38,355 nucleotides of DNA from Blastocatellia bacterium (GTDB lineage: Bacteria; Acidobacteriota; Blastocatellia; HR10; J050): assembly GCA_026985075.1 (NCBI GenBank), contig JALSQX010000065.1, forward strand, positions 1-38,355. Direction: 5' to 3'. Positions 2,192 to 7,844 of this stretch are shown piece by piece (within the stretch, counting starts at the first letter, position 1; each line of letters opens with the position of its first letter). The notes under the pieces were generated by a model, which saw only the letters and a program-made list of their open reading frames with translations, searched no databases and was not told the origin of the DNA. The position numbers and the translations under genes were made by a program.

Positions 2192-3091
2192 TCATGTATG
2201 GTCGGGCGATCGAGCCATGAACGCCAGAATGTGTTGCGCGATCTCTTCGCCCTTATCTTCCTGAAGGAAGTGACCGGCGCCTTCGATCACGATCTCGGGT
2301 TCATTTCGGGCGGCGGGGATGAGCTGGCGGAAGAAGCGATCCCCGCCCCGGGTGATGGGATCGCTGTCGGAGAACACGACCAGCGTTGGTTTCTCCCATT
2401 GAGAGAGGACGGCGCGCGCGCGTCGCATCTCGGCGGCGCCGGGATCATCGGGACGAATGGGGACGAGAAGCGGCCAGGCCCTCGCTCCGGCTTTGTACGA
2501 GGCGTCGGGGAACGGCGCTTCGTAACCGGCGATGACGTCGGCGGGAATGCCATCGCCACTCACCGTGCCTCGGCGAATCACCTCTCCGATCGGGAGATCG
2601 GGCGTCCGCTCGACGAACCGCCGCCAGGCGAAGAAAGCCTCCGGCATGGCCCGTTCGCCCGTCGGCAGGCCGGTATTCATGATCACCAGGCGCGCAAACC
2701 GATCCGGCATCTCGCTGGCCACGGTGAGTCCGATGAGACCGCCCCAATCATGTACCACCAACGTGATCTCACTGAGTCCCAGCGTCTCAATGAAATTCAC
2801 CAGCGTATCGCGATGCATGTGAAATGAATATTCGCTCTGCTCGGTGAACTTATCCGAGCGCCCAAAACCGATGAAGTCCATCGCCAGCGCGCGGTGATGC
2901 GCCGAGAGCGATGGGATCATCTTTCGATAGAGGAATGACCAGGTCGGTTCGCCGTGGAGACAGAGGATGATCTCTCCTTCTCCCTCATCCACGTAATGGA
3001 CGCGCAATCCCTCGATCTCAACGTAGTGGGGCGCGAAGGGAAAATCGGGCAGAGCATCGAATCGTTCATCAGGTGTGCGAATGACGGGCAT
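2192..3091 (-). CDS. haloalkane dehalogenase (alpha/beta-hydrolase fold), 299 aa
   Basis: Alpha/beta hydrolase with the haloalkane dehalogenase signature. HGEPTW (46-51) supplies the oxyanion/halide-binding Trp, VVHDWGG (112-118) supplies the nucleophile Asp115 and second halide-binding Trp116, SDSDPIT (241-247) the likely acid Asp244, and GAGHFLQED (271-279) the catalytic His274. The nucleophilic Asp followed by Trp separates it from epoxide hydrolases and esterases, and its length and late acid resemble the HLD-I (DhlA-like) subfamily. Such cytoplasmic enzymes hydrolyse carbon-halogen bonds to alcohol and halide; the natural substrate is not predictable. The ATG at 3091 has an AAGGAGAGG ribosome-binding site. 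It is followed on the same strand by a small membrane protein and preceded by the PhzF gene, with gaps that do not force an operon. Confidence 0.88.
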
Positions 3092-3226
3092 GAGACCTCT
3101 CCTTGGTTCATCTCGGCAGAGAGAACCGAAATGCCCTCTCCGAGAGATGCATGGATGAAAGCGTTTCTCCTCCTCGACGCCTCATTCATCGTACGGTCTT
3201 CTCACAGTGGGGCGCGAGGAGGAGTA

Positions 3227-4039
3227 TTATTTTGCGTTCTCTACCAGGACATCCTCCAGTTCCCCGCGCAGGACGGTGACCGCCTGCCCACCGAGGATGA
3301 CGCGGTCGCCTTTGACGTCGACGCGCACCACACCACCGCGCGCCGAGGCTTGATACCCGATGAGCGCGTTCTTCTGCAGTCGTTCGCTCCAGAAGGGACC
3401 GAGACAACAATGCGCCGAACCAGTGACCGGATCTTCATCGACACCCACCCGGGGAGCGAAGAAGCGGGAAACGAAATCATAGGCCTCGGACGAAGCCGGG
3501 GCGGTGACGATGATGCCGCGAACGGGGATCGTCTTCAGCAAGGCGAAATCCGGGTTCAGACTCCGCACGACATCTTCGGACGCCACGCTCACCAGGTAGT
3601 CGAATCGATTCCGGCCCACGTACTCGGGCACGACGCCCAGCGCTTCGATGAGTTCGGGGGGCGCTGTGGTCGGCCGTTCGGGCTCGGCGGGGAAATCCAT
3701 CTCGATCCAATCGCCCTTCCGCACGGCGGTCAGAAGGCCGCTGCGCGTATAAAACCGGGCCGGCTGGTCTGACTCGATGTGGCCCTCTTCCCACAGGACA
3801 TGAGCGCTGGCCAGCGTGGCGTGGCCACAGAGATCCACTTCGGTCGTCGGCGTGAACCAACGAAGCTGAAATCCGTCTCCCTGCCGACGTAAGAAGGCCG
3901 TCTCCGAGAGGTTCATCTCCCGGGCGACGTTCTGCATCCAGCGCTCGTCGCGCGGTTCGGTGAGGAGACACACGGCCGCCGGATTGCCGGTGAACGGCTT
4001 ATCGGTGAAGGCGTCGACTTGGATGATCGGTTGTTTCAT
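3227..4039 (-). CDS. PhzF-family isomerase/epimerase, 270 aa
   Basis: Matches the PhzF/diaminopimelate-epimerase-like fold over its whole length. The N-terminal VDAFTDKPFTGNPAAV block (8-23), the MNLSETAF block with the predicted catalytic Glu46, DLCGHATLAS (69-78) and DEDPVTGSAHC (201-211) are all present; both Gly-rich phosphate/carboxylate-binding loops are complete. PhzF itself isomerises dihydro-3-hydroxyanthranilate in phenazine synthesis, but most genomic members lie outside phenazine clusters, as here, and have unknown substrates. I start at the second Met (4037-4039) because the family begins two or three residues before the first strand; an upstream ATG at 4052-4054 would add five residues. 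No strong ribosome-binding site decides between them. It lies 40 bp downstream of the selenoprotein gene on the same strand, so cotranscription is likely. Confidence 0.88.
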   Translation of the reverse strand: MKQPIIQVDAFTDKPFTGNPAAVCLLTEPRDERWMQNVAREMNLSETAFLRRQGDGFQLRWFTPTTEVDLCGHATLASAHVLWEEGHIESDQPARFYTRSGLLTAVRKGDWIEMDFPAEPERPTTAPPELIEALGVVPEYVGRNRFDYLVSVASEDVVRSLNPDFALLKTIPVRGIIVTAPASSEAYDFVSRFFAPRVGVDEDPVTGSAHCCLGPFWSERLQKNALIGYQASARGGVVRVDVKGDRVILGGQAVTVLRGELEDVLVENAK

Positions 4040-4079
4040 TCTGCATCGATGCATCGGGCGCGCGCGACACCGTTATCGT

Positions 4080-4748
4080 TCACTTATTGAGCGCCGCCTT
4101 GGCCGCCGTTAACAAGACGTCGGGATCGACGCGCACCTTGTAATTCGGGTTGATGTACTCGAAGGCGATGGTGCCATCGGTCCGGATGACGAAGGCCGCC
4201 GGGACGGGCAACAAATGATGCTTCTCTCCCGATGCCTCTTCGAGATCGATGCCCAGTTTCCTGTATCGCTCGACCGTCCGATCATCGACCTTATAGGCGA
4301 GGCCGAAGGCACGCGCCGCCGTCATCTGACTGTCGGAGAGGAGCTGATAGCGGAGCTGGTGTTTCTGAATGCTCTGGCGCAGCCTCTCCGGGCGATCGGC
4401 GCTGACGGCGATGAGTTGATAGCCCAGGGCGATGAGCTGAGATTCGATGTTGCGCAGTTGACCCAACTGCAGATTGCAATAGGGTCACCAGCCGCCACGG
4501 TAGAAGATGAGCACGGTCGGTTTCCGGGCAATGGCCGCCCTCAAATCGAACGGGCGACCATCGACCGTCTTCAAGGTGACCGGAGGAACCCGCTCGCCCA
4601 CGAGCAAGGGGCAGATCTCATGGGCCGAATCGGGTATCGCTGTCGTCCGATGATCGGATCGTTCCCCGTCTCTCTGTGACCATCCTGCAGAGAGAATCAG
4701 CAGCAGGACGACCCATCCGGTAGCGCATCGGCGCGCGTGTTTGGTCAT
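4080..4748 (-). CDS. selenocysteine-containing peroxiredoxin-like protein (in-frame UGA = Sec88), 222 aa
   Basis: One reading frame runs from the ATG at 4746-4748 (behind GAGGAGG) to the stop at 4080, interrupted only by a TGA at 4485-4487, codon 88. Protein similarity continues across it: residues 45-87 are the AhpC/TSA-type N-half (CPLLVGERVPPVTLKTVDG, then LIFYRGGW), and immediately after the TGA comes PYCNLQLGQL. The family consensus is Y-R-G-G-W-C-P-Y-C-N-x-Q-L, so UGA occupies the catalytic Cys and yields a U-P-Y-C redox motif (Sec88, Cys91). Residues 1-25 form a signal peptide or membrane anchor, suggesting extracytoplasmic peroxide reduction. Positions 4450-4479 can form a bacterial SECIS hairpin. 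Read conventionally, translation would stop at 87 residues without the active site. A Cys-to-stop pseudogene is the alternative, but no other lesion is present and the hairpin argues against it. PhzF follows 40 bp downstream. Confidence 0.85.
4450..4479 (-). promoter_or_regulatory. putative bacterial SECIS element
   Basis: Read on the minus strand, the RNA after the UGA at 4485-4487 folds as a lower stem UUGC/GCAA (4479-4476 with 4453-4450), a 5-nt one-sided bulge AAUCU, an upper stem GCAGUU/AACUGC (4470-4465 with 4459-4454) and an apical loop GGGUC (4464-4460). The loop begins 20 nt after the UGA and its first bases are G. That agrees with the general bacterial SECIS model, in which a short hairpin soon after the UGA presents a G-rich apical loop to SelB. 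Folding was done by eye only. Confidence 0.72.
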
Positions 4749-4887
4749 GCTCGTTTTCCTCCTCGCTCGACATGGCGTCATGAGTATGGTCGAATTCGAT
4801 GGAGTTGTTCTGTAATGCATCTGACGTTCGGTTCGCACCTGGAGAGCCATTCCGGGACAAGGGTGGGAGCGGCATTTGCCATTGTGT

Positions 4888-6198
4888 TCACCGCTGGAAT
4901 TCATTTTTGATGACGATCCCTCCCTTCATGACGAATTTCACGCGCTCCAGCTCGGTGATGTCCTCCAACGGATTGCCTTCCACGGCGATGAGATCGGCAA
5001 ACTTCCCCGATTCCAGTGAGCCGACGCGGTCGGACCATCCCAGGAGATCGGCAGCGTTGATGGTCGCCGCGCGAATAGCGTCCAGCGGCGTCATGCCATA
5101 CTTCACCATGTAGGCGAACTGTTTGGCATTATCTCCATGCGGGTACACGCCGCCATCGGTGCCGAAGGCCATCTTGACGCCGGCTTTGACGGCGCGGGCG
5201 AAATTGTCCCGTTGCAATTGGCCGATCTGTCGCTCTTTCTCCAGCGACTCTTCGAGCATGCCCACTTCCTTGCCGTGCTGAAGGATGAAGTCATCGTTAT
5301 AGATGTCCATGACTAGGTAGGTCCCATACTGTTTGGCCAGCTCGATGCCTTCGTCGTCGATCAGGCTGGCGTGCTCGATGGAATCGACGCCGGCGCGAAT
5401 GGCCGCTTTGATCCCTTCTGCGCCATGAGCGTGAGCGGCGACTTTTCGTCCCAGCTTATGTGCTTCCTCGACGATGGCGCGCATTTCTTCGAGCGTGTAT
5501 TGCTGGGTTCCCGGTTGATCGCCCTTGGAGAGCACGCCGCCGGTGGCGCAGATTTTGATGAGGTCGGCGCCATACTTGACGACTTCGCGAACCTTAGCGC
5601 GCGCCGCCCACGGTCCATCGGCCACGCCTTGGGCTGTGTAATCGAATTCGGGCGCCAGCAGATTGACGTCGCAGTGTCCGCCGGTGATGCCCAGCGCCGG
5701 TCCAGAGACGAGCAGGCGCGGCCCGATGATATCCCCGTCATTGATGGCGTCGCGGAGGGCGACATCGGCGTAACCGGCGGCTCCGACGTTGCGCACGGTG
5801 GTGAATCCGGCCTCCAACGTCCGACGGGCGTTCCTCGCTCCGATGAGCGCTCGGCGAGGAACCGAGATGCCCAGCGCCGCATAACCCGCATGTTCCGGAT
5901 CTCCCGTCAGATGATCGTGGCAATCGATGAGGCCGGGCAGCACGGTGGCCTGACCGAGGTCGATCACTCGGGCATCCTCAGGCGCGTGCGGTTGAACGAC
6001 GTCGGCCGGCCCAACCTCTTTGATGCGCTCGCCTTCGATGAGAATGGCTTGATCCTCGAGCAGGCGTCCTCGTTTCACATCGAGCAGGCGACCGGCTTTG
6101 ATGAGCGTGATCGGCGATTTGCCCTCATTGGCTTGCTGTGCTTGAAGAGTCGTGCAGGCGAGACATATGATGAATGCGAGGAGCACAACGCGTTTCAT
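4888..6198 (-). CDS. secreted metal-dependent amidohydrolase, 436 aa
   Basis: The ATG at 6196-6198 has an AAGGAGGTG ribosome-binding site. Residues 1-20 are a signal peptide ending ACTTLQA|QQ. The mature protein is a complete amidohydrolase of the imidazolonepropionase-like group. The N-terminal beta-sandwich (about 30-88) leads to PGLIDCHDHL with metal ligands His94 and His96, a probable carboxylated Lys215 (DLIKICATGG), AHAHG with His256/His258, SIEHASL with His276, and the catalytic FGTDGG Asp348. The C-terminal segment returns to the beta-sandwich (GSLESGKFADLIAVEGNPL). Exported members typically cleave amide or peptide bonds, such as Xaa-Pro dipeptides; the substrate here is unknown. A 26-bp palindrome lies 24 bp upstream of the start, within its leader or promoter. 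The selenoprotein gene begins 140 bp downstream on the same strand. Confidence 0.9.
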   Translation of the reverse strand: MKRVVLLAFIICLACTTLQAQQANEGKSPITLIKAGRLLDVKRGRLLEDQAILIEGERIKEVGPADVVQPHAPEDARVIDLGQATVLPGLIDCHDHLTGDPEHAGYAALGISVPRRALIGARNARRTLEAGFTTVRNVGAAGYADVALRDAINDGDIIGPRLLVSGPALGITGGHCDVNLLAPEFDYTAQGVADGPWAARAKVREVVKYGADLIKICATGGVLSKGDQPGTQQYTLEEMRAIVEEAHKLGRKVAAHAHGAEGIKAAIRAGVDSIEHASLIDDEGIELAKQYGTYLVMDIYNDDFILQHGKEVGMLEESLEKERQIGQLQRDNFARAVKAGVKMAFGTDGGVYPHGDNAKQFAYMVKYGMTPLDAIRAATINAADLLGWSDRVGSLESGKFADLIAVEGNPLEDITELERVKFVMKGGIVIKNEFQR

Positions 6199-6221
6199 TT
6201 GGCACACCTCCTTCATAGCGA

Positions 6222-6247
6222 GTGGCGCAAGATGGCATCTTGCGTTC
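6222..6247. repeat. REP-like palindrome, copy 1
   Basis: Begins GTGGCGCA and contains the perfect inverted repeat CGCAAGATG-G-CATCTTGCG. The same sequence occurs in opposite orientation at 7845-7871, and two related palindromes with the same eight-base head lie at 14671-14734. It sits in the leader of the amidohydrolase gene, so it could act as an operator, but its recurrence at unrelated places favours a dispersed repeat. Confidence 0.7.
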
Positions 6248-6478
6248 CATTCCCCCGACTTCCTTTTCGCCCCCTCGGTGTGACTCGCCAAGCCATAGGT
6301 CACTCCTTCGGGACATCGTCGGGGGTAGGGAATCATCTATCATATCGAACACGGATATTTCAAGGAGAAAGATGTGTTTTGAGGGCGCAGCTTGAGGAGC
6401 GTCATCGGGGGAATCGATGATTGGCGTTCTCATGACATCGGGCGAAGACCGGGAGGACGATACTCTGAGCTGGACCGC

Positions 6479-7549
6479 CTATGGCTGCTCGTCAACTTCG
6501 GTCATGGCCGCGCGTCGCTCGTCGAATTCGATGGCCACTTTCTCGTCGGCTTGGATGAGCTCTTCGATATTCACTTTGGCGAAGTCAATGACGCCCATAT
6601 CGGCGAATGCCTTCTGGATGCGCGGTCCCCACAGACCGATATCTTTCAACGTGGGCACGATGCGGGTGAACAATCGCTTTTGATATTCCCGCATGAGCGC
6701 CGATTGGCGAACGTAGGCGACGCAGGCTCTGGTATCCAGACCCAGCGTCTCCCACACTTCTTCACCCAGAAAACGATCGCGCATGAGGTAGCAGGCGTCC
6801 ACGGCGAATTCTTCCCGTTCGTCGCGCTCTTTTTGCGTGAGATGAGGATAATAATCGCGCAGAGCGAGTCGACCGAAAGCCACGTGGCGCGCTTCATCTT
6901 CCATAACGTAAGCGGTGATGGCTCGACCGAGCGGTTCGGTGGCCAGATCGCGGATGGTGCCGAACGCGGCTAAGGCCAATCCTTCGATGATGACCTGCAT
7001 GGCCAGATAGGTGAAATCCCAACGGGCATCGGTGATGGCCTGATCGAGCAACGTCTTGAGATGTGGATTGATGGGATAGAAGAGTTGTAGCTTTTCGCTG
7101 AGGTACCGCGCGTAGACTTCCACGTGCCGGGCTTCATCGACGACCTGCGTCGCCGCATAGAATTTGGCATCCAGATCGGGGACGGTCTGAACAATCTTGG
7201 CGGCGCAGATGAGTGCTCCTTGTTCGCCGTGGAGGAATTGCGAGAAGCGCCAGGCGTCCAGGTGCCGACGAACGCGCCCTTTTTCTTTTTCGGTCAGCTT
7301 GTCCCAGACGTCCGAGCCATAGATGGGCACGAAGACATCGGGGAAACCGAGAGGATTGGATGGATCGACGTCGGGGGACCAGTCGATACGCTGGCTGGCG
7401 TTCCATTGTTTGGCTTTTCCTTTCTCGTACAGCTTGAGCAGTGACTCGCGACCACCATCGTAATCCCAGTTGAAAATAGTGGTGGCGTCCGATACCGGGA
7501 TCGCCCATTGGGTATGATCTGGAGGGATCGTGTAGGTTCGGGTCCGCAT
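6479..7549 (-). CDS. ferritin-like di-iron protein, 356 aa
   Basis: The ATG at 7547-7549 follows AAGGAGAAATCCCT. The central four-helix region carries a complete set of carboxylate-bridged di-iron ligands: Glu109 (LHGEQGA), Glu139 and His142 in the first DEARH, Glu189 (VIIEG) and Glu219 and His222 in the second DEARH. Two E-x-x-H motifs plus two single Glu residues are the layout of ferritin-like oxidases and oxygenases such as ribonucleotide reductase R2, AurF and acyl-ACP desaturases. The protein is longer than ferritins and has N- and C-terminal extensions (about 1-95 and 245-356) that I cannot assign. A soluble di-iron oxidase or N-oxygenase is likely; the substrate is unknown. It is the first gene of the minus-strand block, about 280 bp upstream of the amidohydrolase. 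Confidence 0.82.
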   Translation of the reverse strand: MRTRTYTIPPDHTQWAIPVSDATTIFNWDYDGGRESLLKLYEKGKAKQWNASQRIDWSPDVDPSNPLGFPDVFVPIYGSDVWDKLTEKEKGRVRRHLDAWRFSQFLHGEQGALICAAKIVQTVPDLDAKFYAATQVVDEARHVEVYARYLSEKLQLFYPINPHLKTLLDQAITDARWDFTYLAMQVIIEGLALAAFGTIRDLATEPLGRAITAYVMEDEARHVAFGRLALRDYYPHLTQKERDEREEFAVDACYLMRDRFLGEEVWETLGLDTRACVAYVRQSALMREYQKRLFTRIVPTLKDIGLWGPRIQKAFADMGVIDFAKVNIEELIQADEKVAIEFDERRAAMTEVDEQP

Positions 7550-7844
7550 AGGGATTTCTCCTTGGCGTGCTCCTCGTTCCTTCATCACGCGATGTGCGCC
7601 GAGAAGGCGTGACTCATCATACTCGGTCATTCGCAAACGGGTCAAGGTTGATCGCCCGGTCCGACGACAGGAGGGTTAAGGACGTCGGATTCGCTAGCAA
7701 TGAGTATTGGAATCTCACTGGTGGGCGCTGAGCGTGTAAAGGAGAGACCTCGTCGCTCGACGGCGGGGAGACGTCATGCTCTCGGCCGAGAGACGGAGAA
7801 GTCGCTCATGGCTCTGCGGGCTACACGGCGAGGATGAAAGGGAT

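Follow-up and report, generated by a model that had tools for sequence, protein, structure and literature searches.

A peroxiredoxin-like gene in the window (the whole 38,355-nucleotide stretch of DNA that was analysed) is interrupted by one in-frame UGA, which raises the question of whether this codon is a lesion, a sign of an altered genetic code, or a site of selenocysteine (Sec) insertion. The last reading is favored here: UGA codon 88 is predicted to encode Sec in a functional selenoprotein gene, with a probability of roughly 0.95. The following features bear on this prediction:

4083..4748, minus strand: predicted peroxiredoxin-like (AhpC/TSA) selenoprotein gene of 222 codons, including one internal UGA, with a match to PF00578
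4485..4487, minus strand: in-frame UGA, predicted Sec88, in the motif FYRGGW-U-PYC; TGA in 32 of 79 homologues and TGC/TGT in 47 of 79
4476..4478, minus strand: codon of Cys91, the UxxC partner of Sec; aligned with the peroxidatic Cys of peroxiredoxins and invariant in 46 homologues
4454..4470, minus strand: bacterial SECIS-type hairpin with stem GCAGUU/AACUGC and loop GGGUC, from covariation and RNAalifold
4674..4748, minus strand: hydrophobic N-terminus that, as judged by eye, is probably a signal peptide or a membrane anchor; pLDDT is low for residues 1-30
3227..4054, minus strand: PhzF-like gene starting 25 nt past the selenoprotein stop; same order in a sister species

When the TGA is read through, a single 222-aa frame extends from the ATG at 4748 to a final sense codon ending at 4083, and is closed by a UGA terminator at 4082-4080. 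The sole internal TGA (4487-4485) falls at residue 88, within IFYRGGW-U-PYC. A Shine-Dalgarno sequence, GAGGAGG, lies just 5' of the ATG, and GC3 is alike on either side of the internal UGA (0.70 and 0.78). The translation scores 90.1 bits on PF00578 (E 1.4e-25), for which the gathering score is 26. An earlier note on this DNA, which gave no strand, had described an otherwise intact gene split by a single TGA at the first Cys of YRGGWCPYC, and had expected standard gene callers to report two fragments. Both descriptions hold: Cys codons occupy this position in the 47 homologues listed above, and ordinary ORF calling yields 4485..4904 and 4080..4466. Gene callers that do not model proteins of this type would likewise break it in two at this codon or flag it as a pseudogene. 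In a scan of UGA read-through frames across the window, only this gene combined a convincing redox motif with a family context, as judged by eye.

The N-terminus (KHARR...WVVLLLILSAG) is hydrophobic, and on the basis of this sequence the product is probably secreted or membrane-anchored, which makes the export proposed in the earlier note plausible. Around the gene, the minus-strand order AurF-like, amidohydrolase, selenoprotein, PhzF-like, and alpha/beta hydrolase (window 2192-7645) is kept in the sister species and was not seen beside more distant homologues. The PhzF-like gene is possibly co-transcribed with the selenoprotein gene.

A sense reading of UGA could also arise through genome-wide reassignment of the codon, or through read-through without Sec, e.g., by a near-cognate tRNA inserting Trp or Cys; either would carry translation across the one UGA in this gene. 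However, UGA serves as the terminator of the selenoprotein gene itself and of several neighbours, which rules out a global code change. As the gene ends in the same codon that it contains internally, decoding of the internal UGA must depend on context. Read-through without Sec is further opposed by the alternation of UGA with Cys codons only among homologues, by the presence of both tRNA-Sec and SelB, and by the conservation of the hairpin, so that this explanation, in either form, is very unlikely.

The machinery for Sec insertion is complete in the source genome, a 5.2-Mb draft of 105 contigs that is 98.7% complete and in which the window is contig C65. A tRNA-Sec with the anticodon UCA was found with 72.8 bits and confirmed by ARAGORN; selB lies above its cut-off, and selA and selD score 577 and 369 bits, respectively. 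Together with selC, these genes are spread over four different contigs of the draft. The earlier note had named selA, selB, selC, and selD as the genes to look for, with the absence of selB, selC, and selD counting against a Sec reading; all four are present. SelB and tRNA-Sec(UCA) would decode UGA codon 88 as Sec in the cell, and the downstream hairpin would guide the insertion.

Comparison with homologues bears on a simpler explanation, in which a Cys-type gene has acquired its UGA through a nonsense mutation or a base-call error. Within a single genome, one change from TGC or TGT to TGA would look no different. The UGA, however, is shared at this codon by an independent sister species (90% identity) and by a relative from the same class (56%), a congener of which carries Cys. 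From 84,980 species genomes scanned, 300 relatives were obtained and 80 loci kept; with the four sequences already named added, 79 homologues could be parsed, in the proportions of UGA and Cys codons given above. The rows of this set are not all independent, as three pairs (L026/L055, L027/L065, and L028/L071) apparently each represent one organism reached twice. UGA forms were found in Acidobacteriota, Nitrospirota, Armatimonadota, Eiseniibacteriota, and Thermodesulfobacteriota. When the window gene is compared with its sister, dN/dS comes to 0.15-0.18 before the UGA and 0.13 after it, which indicates that the downstream part is selected as protein. The conserved UGA, coupled with this purifying selection past it, refutes a nonsense mutation or sequencing error; hairpin covariation and the complete Sec machinery also stand against a broken gene, leaving this explanation with next to no probability.

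The distribution of the two forms is in keeping with Sec use. Among 50 genomes searched, selB was above the cut-off in 24 of 25 with UGA forms and in 7 of 25 with Cys forms, an association and not an independent-sample test, because the genomes are related and some are incomplete. The one exception among the UGA forms (genome G068) possibly reflects incompleteness. A maximum-likelihood tree, built with the Sec residue masked, requires at least 11 Sec/Cys changes; its well-supported branches force only three of them, and many branches are weak.

The RNA downstream of the UGA provides a further line of evidence. The earlier note had pointed to a SECIS-type hairpin with its loop 20 nt from the UGA; the hairpin is present, with 6 bp, beginning 14 nt past the UGA and placing its loop at that distance. 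On one sequence alone, it is weak evidence. The stability of the isolated hairpin is not unusual (z of -1.35 for the single sequence), and a hairpin of equal or better quality accompanies about 2.3% of the TGAs in the window. When a longer stretch of the window sequence is folded, the minimum-energy structure contains a competing UGACCC/GGGUCA helix that pairs the UGA itself; this helix is apparently peculiar to the window sequence, the sister having UGACCG.

Across homologues, the hairpin is far stronger than chance. The contiguous stem averages 6.0 pairs in UGA forms versus 2.1 in Cys forms, where it is mostly disrupted, and position 2 of the loop is G in 32 of 32 UGA forms. A conserved G in the apical loop is a recognized property of bacterial SECIS elements (PMC1088965). 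As the encoded QLGQL residues by themselves favor some of the pairing, a synonymous-codon null was used, in which codons were redrawn 5000 times under each gene's own codon usage. Of 72 pairs, 66 are formed in the UGA forms, whereas the null predicts 51 +/- 3; the observed number was reached in 0 of 5000 draws. The Cys forms lie slightly above their null (167 versus 153.5 pairs; 60 of 5000 draws), an excess that may come from residual stems in recent converts. Among 19 distinct UGA sequences, 94.7% of cells are paired and both sides have changed at four of the six pairs, as in the replacement of CAGUU-AACUG by CAACU-AGUUG; the covariation score was reached by 0 of 500 shuffles, and RNAalifold recovered the identical stem independently and unprompted. 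The synonymous null and the covariation rule out a hairpin that is a product of chance or a by-product of QLGQL. The stem is weak in this register in three of the 32 UGA forms (L027, L065, and L079). Rfam gave no match in the window at gathering scores, a result that is uninformative for SECIS elements here. In a Cys form from Ignavibacteria (L087), an 8-bp stem lies at the SECIS position, either as a relic of a Sec-containing ancestor or by chance.

Taken together, the full set of Sec-insertion genes, the UGA shared among homologues, the Cys codons that take its place in others, the covariation of the hairpin, and the purifying selection strongly support the earlier proposal that the UGA is decoded as Sec. 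The chemistry proposed alongside it, that of a U-x-x-C peroxidase with UGA at the catalytic Cys, lacks such support in that form. The structure model (mean pLDDT of 89.7) has a peroxiredoxin fold, with Sulfolobus Bcp4 as the best structural match (Z of 23.1 over 158 residues, rmsd of 1.8) and Z values of 20-23 to BCP, AhpE, AhpC, and Prx5. In an alignment with solved peroxiredoxins, including the Aeropyrum enzyme, Sec88 falls on the Ser/Thr of the PxxxTxxC motif, and it is Cys91 that occupies the position of the peroxidatic Cys. Placement of the UGA at the catalytic Cys of a peroxiredoxin is not supported. In the same alignment, Arg84 replaces the catalytic Pro and Pro183 replaces the catalytic Arg; of the PxxxT(S)xxC motif and catalytic Arg, the window protein keeps Cys91 alone. 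Arg84, position 88, and Cys91 are invariant in 46 homologues, and Pro183 is nearly so. Pro183 sits where thioredoxin-like proteins have their cis-proline, and is presumably in the cis state.

Judging from the model, the active site looks like a thioredoxin-type UxxC site on a peroxiredoxin scaffold. The thioredoxin/TlpA-like Sec-Pro-Tyr-Cys sequence and the probable cis-Pro183 make a thiol:disulfide oxidoreductase the most likely function, and oxidoreductase rather than peroxidase chemistry is predicted with fair, though far from full, confidence. The product would adopt a BCP/AhpE-like peroxiredoxin fold, probably outside the cytoplasm or anchored in the membrane to judge from its N-terminus, and a Sec88-Cys91 selenenylsulfide would form in its redox reaction. 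A true selenoprotein could instead be a genuine peroxidase, with Sec88 or Cys91 as the attacking group; this alternative concerns the chemistry and leaves the selenoprotein reading untouched. The fold and the location of Cys91 at the peroxidatic position favor it, and peroxide-reducing activity is possible. However, the catalytic Pro, Thr, and Arg are all exchanged, for residues that are themselves invariant or nearly so among the 46 homologues, and a peroxidase is accordingly the less probable of the two, although not a negligible one.

By domain and motif, the window gene is a Prx-like selenoprotein, a family known since 2005. This family is defined by a PF00578 domain with Sec first in UxxC (PMC9312934, PMC13188914); it has been described as "Prx-like" (PMC1088965) and "Prx-like 1" (PMC2398784), and is tabulated with UxxC/UxxU motifs and the representative WP_010940744.1 (Table 1 of PMC13188914), where it is listed as a predicted thiol:disulfide oxidoreductase family (PMC13188914). 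Shared features include the AhpC/TSA domain, a single Sec in a thioredoxin-like UxxC replacing TxxU, a bacterial SECIS element directly downstream, and many Cys homologues. A literature search on the Geobacter member of the family returned nothing specific.

Three other groups are similar in part. Sec-containing peroxiredoxins of the TxxU type share the fold and the Pfam family, but carry Sec at the position of the peroxidatic Cys, whereas the window protein has Sec at the Thr position and Cys91 as the peroxidatic equivalent. SelL-related redox proteins (NF040769) are distantly similar (E 3.2e-13), but the window protein scores 49.7 bits where the cut-off is 120, and has a UxxC motif, while the SelL motif is UxxU. 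TlpA/ResA-type thiol-disulfide oxidoreductases share a CxxC-type motif at a helix start, a probable cis-Pro, and a weak sequence match to ResA, but the overall structure of the window protein matches peroxiredoxins better. Among NCBIfam models, none reaches its cut-off on the window protein.

The present gene adds a well-supported UxxC member to the Prx-like selenoproteins, and its clade illustrates clearly both the covariation of a SECIS element and the exchange of Sec and Cys across phyla. We tentatively suggest, at somewhat less than even odds, that the FYRGGW-[U/C]-PYC clade forms a Prx-like subfamily of its own, as yet without a model and with repeated Sec/Cys switching, in which the SECIS stem lying in the QLGQL codons biases codons and residues there. 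If so, the clade would offer a natural test set for the appearance and decay of SECIS elements within coding sequence.

The source genome holds at least six further UGA-containing redox or Sec-related genes. The selD gene (L018, G000:C33) is itself a predicted selenoprotein gene, with an in-frame UGA in GAG-U-ACK. Two membrane-anchored Prx-like genes, L135 (G000:C102:34800-36200, minus strand) and L136 (G000:C87:71700-73200, plus strand), have in-frame UGAs, and the pair carries the motifs FYRGFW-U-PFC and FYRGDW-U-KFC. A TlpA/ResA-like gene (L137, G000:C71:30200-31600, minus strand) has its UGA in FFWGSW-U-GVC. The TxxU-type peroxiredoxin gene, with FTPG-U (L138, G000:C20:24200-25600, minus strand), is followed directly by a DsbA-family gene (L139; PF01323, 114.7 bits) with UGA in MRLEIFSDYV-U-PFC, so that two predicted selenoproteins adjoin. 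The total of at least seven predicted selenoproteins in this genome exceeds the published counts of three to four for acidobacteria (PMC1794560, PMC12013277).
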